From assembly GCA_019359745.1 (NCBI GenBank), contig JAHHGT010000007.1, positions 124,001 to 188,000 of the forward strand: a DNA stretch of 64,000 bases, written 5' to 3'. The position numbers and the translations under genes are program-made. The notes under the pieces are model-generated. The model ran no database searches, was not told the origin of the DNA, and saw nothing but the letters and a program-made list of their open reading frames with translations. This DNA is from Aphanothece saxicola GSE-SYN-MK-01-06B (GTDB lineage: Bacteria > Cyanobacteriota > Cyanobacteriia > PCC-6307 > Cyanobiaceae). Positions 35,036-37,227 of the stretch are shown in pieces (the stretch's first letter is position 1; each line of letters begins with the position of its first letter).

Positions 35036-35776
35036 ATGCAGCGAACCTACCTGGCCCTGGCGGGCCTGGCCCTGGCCGGAGCCGGCCTGCCGATGGTGCA
35101 GCCCAGGCTGGCCATGGCCTCCGGCCTCTTCCAGAGCACGGAGGTGGACGCCGATCGCTTTGCGGTGCTGGCCAGGCCTGTGGGCGACAGCGATTGGACC
35201 CTCCTGGTGCTGGAGCAGCTGGCCGCCCAGCCCTCCTGCTGGCAGGCCCGCCCGGACGGGCTGGTGGATCCGACCCTGAACCGGTTCGACTACACCGGCA
35301 TCTGCAATCGCTACCTCGACAGCAACGGCTACTCGCTGCGGGTCGCCGACCAGGACCTGGGCACCACCTACCGCCTGCAGGTGCAGCAGGTGGGATCCCG
35401 CCTGGAGTTGCAGGCCGTCTCCCCCCGAAGCTCCGCCGTCCTGGTGGTGGGCAGGGCGGAGGTGCCCCTGCGCGATCGCGACGGCTTCGTGTCCCTCAAG
35501 CTCGAACCCGGCTGGGATCTCCAACGGCGCACCTACCAGGAGAGGTCCCTGACCCACCTCTACTTCGCCAGTCCGGCCCCACTGGAGCAATTGATCGCCC
35601 GGGCCGGCGGCGTTCAGACGTTCCGGCGTCCCCCGGGCAGGGCCGAACTCCCCGGCCTTGCCGCCACCCTGCCGACGCTCGACCAGCGCGACGACAGCAT
35701 GGGCACCGACCGCTCCGGTCGGGCGATCGCCCTTCAGGTCATTCCTTACTCCGAGGCCAATGGAGGAGGACTCTGA
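35036..35776 (+). CDS. DUF3747-domain secreted protein
   Basis: A 246-residue protein with a signal peptide ([17 protein letters not shown], with cleavage near MASG). The DUF3747 core follows: [21 protein letters not shown], then [35 protein letters not shown] and a strand-rich remainder. This family is largely cyanobacterial and its role is unknown; it is probably periplasmic or outer-membrane associated. Two Cys (SCWQ, GIC) could pair. The start is ATG 35036 after GGAGGTG, a good ribosome-binding site. Confidence 0.88.
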
Positions 35777-35829
35777 CCCCAAGGCTTGATCCCGTCCTGG
35801 CCCACGTCCGGGACCAGTTGAATCACCGG

Positions 35830-35883
35830 ACTCCTCACCCCGCACCTGCCTTCCCCGCCACTTAATCTGATCTGGTGAGGAGT
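35830..35883. repeat. Inverted repeat around a -10-like element
   Basis: ACTCCTCACC (35830-35839) is the exact reverse complement of GGTGAGGAGT (35874-35883). The 34-base spacer contains TTAATCT, a possible -10 element. The right arm would be the start of the candidate small RNA. Confidence 0.5.
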
Positions 35884-35970
35884 GAAGGACGCTCTTCCAG
35901 GGTCGAAACGAGGACAGACTCCCGGAATCGTTCCATCTCCAGAGCCCTGCCTTCGGCGGGGCTCTTTTTT
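35875..35970 (+). ncRNA. Candidate small RNA with strong terminator
   Basis: A transcript of about 96 bases is suggested by a -10-like TAATCT at 35863-35868 and a terminator ending at 35970. It could fold into several short stems: GAGTG/CGCTC around AAGGA, GGGTC/GACTC around a GAAACGAGG loop, GGAA/TTCC, and the terminal stem. There is no convincing reading frame or neighbouring gene it would naturally lead. The GAAAC-containing loops recall abundant cyanobacterial sRNAs, but I cannot assign a family. No good -35 element is visible. It could alternatively be only a read-through terminator of the DUF3747 gene. Confidence 0.45.
35941..35970 (+). terminator. Rho-independent terminator
   Basis: AGAGCCC (35941-35947) pairs with GGGCTCT (35959-35965), with an inner GCC-TTC-GGC cap, followed by six T. 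It ends the candidate small RNA and/or the DUF3747 transcript. Confidence 0.88.
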
Positions 35971-36032
35971 ATGGCTGGCCATGCGTTCACCGTACCGAGG
36001 GGCGCGCCCAACCTTCAACGGTCACGACCATG

Positions 36033-36058
36033 AAAAAGCCGGCCCCGCAGGGCCGGCT
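36033..36058 (-). terminator. Terminator of the ribosomal protein operon
   Basis: Read on the minus strand, AGCCGGCCC, a TGC loop and GGGGCCGGCT form a long GC-rich stem followed by TTTTT. It lies about 45 bases past the rplL stop and is the expected end of the secE-to-rplL transcript. Confidence 0.88.
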
Positions 36059-36103
36059 CCAAAGCGCGGGGTTCGCCGGGCCAGGAGGCCCGGCGTTGGC
36101 TGG

Positions 36104-36490
36104 TCACTTGATGGAGACCTTGCCACCCACTTCTTCGATGCTCTTTTTGAGAGCTTCGGCATCGTTCTTGGAGATGCCTTCCTTGACGGCCTTGGGAGCG
36201 GCTTCCACAAGGGCCTTGGCTTCGCCCAGACCGAGGCCGGTGGCCTCGCGGACGGCCTTGAGCACCTTGATCTTGGCGGCCGGATCGAAGCCATCGAGGA
36301 TGACGTCGAATTCGGTCTGCTCTTCAACCGCCTCGGCGGCGGCGCCGGGGGCGGCGGCGGCCATGACGACGCCAGCCGAAGCGGCGGCGGACACGCCGAA
36401 GGCCTCTTCGATCTGCTTGACGAGCTCGGAAGCCTCAAGCAGCGAAAGGGTTTTCAGTTGTTCGAGAATCTGGTCGGTGGTAGCGGACAT
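36104..36490 (-). CDS. rplL: 50S ribosomal protein L7/L12
   Basis: Forms the flexible stalk of the large subunit that recruits translation factors. The 128-residue protein has the N-terminal dimerisation helices ([28 protein letters not shown]), an Ala-rich hinge, and the globular C-terminal domain ([40 protein letters not shown]). It lies downstream of rplJ, 63 bases away, and is the last gene of the operon, followed by a terminator. Confidence 0.98.
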
Positions 36491-36553: not shown

Positions 36554-37081
36554 TCAACCTTCGCCGGATTCGGCGTGCTGCTTGAGCGCCCTGGCGAGAC
36601 CGGACGGAACCTCGTTGATACCCACAGCCAGCTTGGTGGCCAGGCCATTGATCGCACCGGCGATCTGGGCCATGAGCACCTCCTTGGAGGGCAGATCCCC
36701 GATGGCCTGGATGTCGGAGGGGGACAGGAGCTTGCCTTCGAAAAGGCCTCCCTTCACATCCGACTTCTTGGTGTCCTTCTGGAAGGACTGCAGGGCCTTC
36801 ACCGCACCGCCGACATCGCCCTTGACCAGGACGAAAGCATTGGTTCCAGTGAGCAGGGAATCGAGATCCGACCAGGCGCTGTCACCATCAATGGCACGGC
36901 GCATCAAGGTGTTTTTGGTCACCTTGCACACACCGTTGCTGGCCTGCAGACGGGTCCGCAGATCAGTCATCTCCTTGATGGTCAGGCCCTTGAAATCGAG
37001 GACCAGCGCCATTTCGGCTTCACCGAGGAGCCCTTTGAGCTCTTCGACGATCTGTTGCTTGTTCTCCAGCGTGCGGCCCAT
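36554..37081 (-). CDS. rplJ: 50S ribosomal protein L10
   Basis: Anchors L7/L12 dimers to the ribosome. The 175-residue protein begins [19 protein letters not shown]; the globular domain and the C-terminal L12-binding helix ([10 protein letters not shown]) are both present. I chose the ATG at 37081; nine codons upstream there is another in-frame start but it carries no L10-like sequence. The upstream region carries an L10 leader, so expression is probably autoregulated by L10(L12)4. Confidence 0.97.
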
Positions 37082-37227
37082 AGGAAGTGGATCGGATCGG
37101 GGGAACAAGCAGGGAACGCAGCCCGGACAGCCCCCCGGAAAGGGAAGCTTCGAGGCCGCTCATCGCTCCGCTCCGATCTGAACGACTCCGGTGGAGTCGC
37201 CAGCACAGGCAAAAACCAATCGCGTGC

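Follow-up and report, generated by a model that had tools for sequence, protein, structure and literature searches.

A Yfr2-family small RNA gene beside rplL in Aphanothece saxicola

Between a DUF3747 gene and rplL, the window (the whole stretch of 64,000 nucleotides analysed here) holds a segment in which an earlier note, made from the letters alone, had seen a candidate small RNA (sRNA). The question is whether this segment is a gene in its own right and to which family it belongs. Positions 35875-35970 of the plus strand are firmly assigned to the Yfr2 family, which resolves the open candidate to a named family. Yfr2 is a well-known cyanobacterial regulatory sRNA, thought to soak up another sRNA, Yfr1; the gene type is thus already known, and the copy described here looks genuine and highly conserved. 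The explanation that we hold with high confidence is a free-standing Yfr2-family sRNA gene, in which a putative, probably activator-dependent promoter at about 35815-35868 would drive an RNA of about 96 nt to an intrinsic terminator, the product probably acting as a Yfr1 sponge. The features concerned are collected in Table 1.

Table 1. Position and basis of the features in and around yfr2 (window coordinates).
Feature	Position	Strand	Basis or remark
DUF3747 gene	35036-35776	+	PF12565, E 3.2e-51; upstream of yfr2, same strand
Box CAGTTG-N5-CCGG, candidate activator site (possibly GntR/CGRE1)	35815-35829	+	column counts; centre about -53
Upstream arm of inverted repeat, ACTCCTCACC	35830-35839	+	exact over 10 bp; partner arm GGTGAGGAGT at 35874-35883
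-10-like box TAATCT	35863-35868	+	direct reading; ends 6 nt 5' of inferred start
Inferred 5' end of yfr2, at GTGAGGAG	35875		uncertain by 1-2 bases
yfr2, predicted sRNA of about 96 nt	35875-35970	+	RF01701 match, own model R1, covariation
5' anti-Yfr1 segment, GTGAGGAGTG	35875-35884	+	conservation, cofold
Conserved hairpin GGGTC-GAAACGAGGACA-GAC-T-CC, 12-nt loop	35900-35922	+	fold, alignment, pair counts
Intrinsic terminator (11-bp stem, TTC loop, T-run)	35941-35970	+	terminator scan, pair changes
rplL (ribosomal protein L7/L12)	36104-36490	-	PF00542 and PF16320; convergent with yfr2
rplJ	36554-37108	-	convergent with yfr2

Family assignment and structure of the RNA

A relaxed Rfam scan of 451 bases gave a match at 35869-35938 (+) to RF01701 (Cyano-1), which we take, on the strength of common features, to be the Rfam name for Yfr2. 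The match scored 36.9 bits (E 7.8e-5), and its alignment was full-length, covering model positions 1-69 of 69. The default Rfam scan of the window at the gathering threshold listed nothing, because 36.9 bits falls under the RF01701 cut-off of 41 bits, an annotation threshold and no biological feature. Besides Cyano-1, the relaxed scan of these 451 bases gave 14 further matches, each far under its own cut-off. Exactly one RF01701 match (E <= 0.001) per genome was found in 37/37 genus genomes, own genome included; 22 passed the Rfam cut-off and 15 failed, and in these 15 the cut-off would narrowly miss Yfr2. Matches were also present in 56 of 60 genomes (own genome and relatives), searched with stricter filters able to lose weak matches, and in 113 of the 121 genomes of the family, 46 of which held two to eight by hand count. 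The contigs found by pattern came from Cyanobium, Synechococcus, Vulcanococcus, and similar picocyanobacteria. A search of plasmid DNA gave no match, and no tRNA was found in the window.

The predicted fold of 35875-35972 has -42.2 kcal/mol (z -2.62), a value that 2 of 200 shuffles matched. In an alignment of 76 sequences, the consensus consists of the 12-nt-loop hairpin and the terminator hairpin; both-sided changes were observed in 9 of 17 pairs, 96.7% of the alignment cells were paired against at most 58.2% with slid partners, and 500 shuffles failed to reach any of five covariation measures. In the first hairpin, five of eight pairs are invariant across the alignment; as 48 of the 76 sequences are named loci fetched by a pattern fixing most first-hairpin letters, the invariance of those pairs in these loci is largely by construction. 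The pairs with double changes all lie outside the pattern-fixed letters, and the terminator stem shows both-sided changes in six of its nine counted pairs. A rho-independent terminator is a feature of Yfr2 and is present in the yfr2 copies read here, including the window copy, in which the hairpin spans 35941-35965 and the T's run as far as 35970. The terminator scan gave two overlapping terminator-like sites there, against 0.3 expected from shuffles.

The earlier note's proposal of an sRNA gene akin to abundant cyanobacterial sRNAs is therefore supported by the RF01701 match, the genus-wide matches, and the covariation, and its strong terminator is borne out. Its view that the family could not be fixed gives way to the Yfr2/Cyano-1 assignment, and its "GAAAC-rich loops" were overstated, a single GAAAC loop being present. 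Two of the checks that it had named, an Rfam covariance search and conservation in picocyanobacteria, were favourable, the former though the score stays under the curated cut-off.

The 12-nt loop GAAACGAGGACA sits on a helix broken after three pairs, in line with the published central loop of Yfr2, which has 12 nt and whose stem carries a bulge close by (PMC2662882). The window copy also resembles Yfr2/RF01701 in its 5' GUGAGGAGU, the GAAAC sequence of this loop, its intrinsic terminator, and a length of about 90-100 nt. It differs in lying under the Rfam cut-off, in the single match per genome of its genus, where Yfr2 usually has several copies elsewhere (PMC6778093), and in a position conserved beside rplL. 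In addition, its loop stem GGGUCGAAACGAGGACAGACUCC resembles that of Synechocystis (race primers, PMC2662882) more than the GUGGAAAC stem found in most dispersed copies of the family.

Promoter region and pairing with Yfr1

The -10-like box reported earlier was read as TAATCT, and T/A-rich boxes lie at roughly the same place in relatives (by eye). The promoter scan found no sigma-70 -35/-10 pair, and no consensus -35 is present. About 46-60 bases 5' of the inferred start lies a conserved box, CAGTTG-N5-CCGG; its anchor CA[GC]T[TCG] is present there in all 37 genus sequences, and the CCGG letters agree in 36, 35, 37, and 35 of the 37, the CAGTT letters being partly fixed by the anchoring and the CCGG letters lying outside the anchor. 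Among the named loci, 75/80 anchor on the box, with CCGG clearly weaker. The box was rejected as a unique word: when at most one mismatch was allowed, the 15-mer occurred 22 times in the genome, twice exactly, and its reversed control 34 times. Within the window it matches once, which chance alone would account for (expected mean 0.68). PMM1637, a GntR regulator of Prochlorococcus, binds yfr2 promoters containing CGRE1 (PMC6778093), and own genome encodes one GntR-domain protein over the Pfam cut-off, with a second match under it. That the box is CGRE1 is a guess, and so is the identification of the protein over the cut-off as the PMM1637 orthologue.

The 5' end of the RNA points to Yfr1. The string GTGAGGAGT is kept in 37/37 genus sequences, which were collected with the Rfam model and thus independently of that string. 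The proposed partner, Yfr1 (RF01116), is a separate gene, located at guaB-trxA, whose complementary motif ACUCCUCACAC is flanked by two hairpins; it was found in 40 of 42 genus genomes and, at 65.1 bits, on another contig of own genome, where its flanks are the trxA (thioredoxin) start and the guaB end (by eye). The motif ACUCCUCACAC is absent from the predicted Yfr2 transcript on direct reading. In the cofold, the Yfr2 5' end GUGAGGAGUG and the Yfr1 core CACUCCUCAC form a perfect 10-bp duplex, with -78.3 kcal/mol for the pair against -71.4 for both apart. When Yfr1 is paired with the initial 66 nt of Yfr2, the raw duplex energy (-46.5) is not significant against 300 shuffles (mean -41.6, sd 5.3, minimum -65.0), so the case for pairing rests on motif position, conservation, and published work. 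Yfr2 is described as having an extremely conserved 5' end of 8-13 nt, predicted to be single-stranded (PMC2662882). The window copy has the conserved 5' end complementary to Yfr1, with the reservation that only the first 4 nt at the very 5' end are free in the lone fold, GGAG being paired in the closing stem.

In Prochlorococcus MED4, Yfr1 and Yfr10 were pulled down by Yfr2, and an E. coli reporter repressed by Yfr1 was restored on co-expression of Yfr2; Yfr10 bears the Yfr1 motif and likewise binds Yfr2 in Prochlorococcus (PMC6778093). By analogy, the window yfr2 is likely to be a Yfr1 sponge: its 5' end would pair with the Yfr1 core and keep Yfr1 away from its mRNA targets, and the conserved loop may touch further mRNAs. 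Family, structure, conservation, complementarity to Yfr1, and genomic place come from our computation; sponging, GntR control, and a response to high light or to a shortage of nitrogen, through induction, are carried over from the Prochlorococcus work and could apply here in the same way.

Genomic place and alternative readings

The segment had been placed at the end of the ribosomal operon; rplJ and rplL, however, are minus-strand genes, convergent with the sRNA. Downstream, convergent rplL was found in 77/80 named picocyanobacterial loci and 36/37 genus loci. Upstream, a same-strand DUF3747 gene was found in 67/80 named loci, a count limited by the 11/80 loci holding fewer than 700 bases upstream, and a DUF3747 match in 36/37 genus loci. 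Among the named loci lacking rplL, L085 ends too early to tell and L091 and L118 have full flanks; the genus exceptions are L008, with no rplL match, and L017, with no DUF3747 match on a short flank. PMC6778093, citing earlier work, calls yfr2 loci unconserved, a statement that the steady rplL neighbourhood and the loop type of this copy qualify. The novelty is modest and consists of a yfr2 fixed beside rplL with a loop type of its own; among the open-licence PMC papers searched, no paper mentioned Yfr2 together with rplL or with Cyanobium.

Two further structures lie between the convergent genes. One (36033-36058, minus strand, by eye) is a strong, GC-rich hairpin that has a short T-run and resembles a terminator of the rplJ-rplL operon; it faces the yfr2 terminator at a distance of about 65 bases and was not among the sites given by the terminator scan. 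The other, directly past the rplL stop at 36074-36095, is a near-perfect GC-rich palindrome; the relaxed Rfam scan matches it, probably by chance, to a family of CRISPR repeats with 23.3 bits, where the cut-off is 39.

The same-strand DUF3747 gene suggests a reading in which 35875-35970 does no more than supply the DUF3747 mRNA with its 3' UTR and terminator, with no separate sRNA. Between 35776, where DUF3747 stops, and 35941, the terminator scan listed nothing, and DUF3747 read-through may therefore share the yfr2 terminator; the frequency of DUF3747 upstream in the named loci also fits. This reading is nevertheless highly improbable, since the 5' segment and the loop are far better conserved than the spacer, and since no DUF3747 or rplL match lies within about 1.5 kb of any fetched copy in G119 (4), G067 (3), and G127 (2), or of 6/7 copies in G162 and 5/6 in G137. 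Moreover, Synechocystis Yfr2a has its own mapped start, downstream of trxA (PMC2662882). That the segment is a short coding gene is hardly conceivable: a 52-aa ORF is listed from the GTG at 35875, and the frame stays open up to the 133-codon test limit in 35/115 sequences, as is common in G+C-rich DNA, but frame lengths spread from 4 codons to that limit, indels shift the frame, and the substitutions follow the RNA pairs.

The two remaining alternatives concern how the gene works. The 10-bp inverted repeat described round the promoter is indeed exact, but its conservation did not hold: the 9-mer ACTCCTCAC occurs exactly within 75 nt upstream in 3/37 genus and 2/80 named sequences, and the carriers are closely alike by eye. 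This poor conservation among relatives rules the repeat out as a general operator. A function of the upstream arm, either masking the Yfr2 5' end in DUF3747 read-through RNA or imitating the Yfr1 motif, draws on the Yfr1 core letters that it contains and on the rarity of the 9/9 match in mononucleotide-shuffled upstream regions (0.0004 per sequence), which indicates that ACTCCTCAC is not a plain composition effect. Such a function is extremely improbable given the few and similar carriers, and the arm lies outside Yfr2 itself, being upstream of the inferred start. Less easily set aside, although still unlikely, is a real Yfr2 gene that acts chiefly by pairing of its loop with mRNAs, with Yfr1 sponging as a minor role. 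The loop is almost as invariant as the 5' end within the genus, and work on Prochlorococcus assigned 404 peaks enriched with Yfr2 to 302 mRNAs (PMC6778093); against this stand the 5' anti-Yfr1 segment, unchanged throughout the genus set, and the co-occurrence of Yfr1 with Yfr2. This possibility overlaps with the preferred Yfr1-sponge explanation, and the confidences given to the two are not meant to sum to one.

Copy number and loop types

In own genome, yfr2 appears to be single-copy, because our covariance model R1, built from 76 distinct sequences including the window copy, gave 104.1 bits at the window yfr2 (itself a model member) and 23.1 bits (E 0.004) at the runner-up, followed by seven weaker places. 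The three next-best R1 loci, read over their central 180 bases, lack both the 5' motif and the GTCGAAAC loop; one of them holds a tRNA-like stretch (by eye). With one detected copy per genome in the genus, the role of Yfr2 is testable there without paralogues.

For the wider family, 40 loci were fetched from 16 genomes, one copy each being left out in G162, G072, G151, and G097. All six single-match genomes (G126, G160, G108, G087, G117, and G163) carry their copy at rplL. Among the ten multi-copy genomes, four have one fetched copy there (G162, G137, G072, and G151), and six have no fetched rplL-linked copy (G119, G067, G127, G097, G177, and G080). The GUCGAAAC loop type was found in all ten rplL-linked copies of these 40 loci; the 30 copies away from rplL comprised 27 of the GUGGAAAC type, one of neither type, and two of the GUCGAAAC type (in G127 and G067). 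In a set of 30 best-match family loci, which has nine places in common with the first set, 7/7 rplL-linked copies carry GUCGAAAC, and the 23 others divide into 20 with GUGGAAAC and three with GUCGAAAC. The GUCGAAAC type occurs in other lineages read here and in Synechocystis (primers, PMC2662882). Loop type thus follows the locus closely but with exceptions, as GUCGAAAC occurs away from rplL too.

The chances seem evenly balanced that picocyanobacteria inherited the rplL-linked yfr2 vertically as their ancestral Yfr2: it has a fixed locus and the GUCGAAAC loop, and no second copy accompanies it in the Cyanobium-like genus. Most dispersed GUGGAAAC copies would then be later duplicates whose loops, and perhaps targets, changed. 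If so, deleting yfr2 in the one-copy genus would test the Yfr1-sponge model cleanly.

Some genomes hold several near-alike yfr2 copies, such as L216 and L217 (G137) or L229-L231 (G119), which in two cases lie 1.5-1.8 kb apart, as if duplicated recently. In L222-L225 (G177 and G080), the 5' motif is altered to GTGTAGGAGG or GTGAAGGAGT instead of GTGAGGAGT, and these loci include the two top-scoring Cyano-1 matches of the family set (80 bits).
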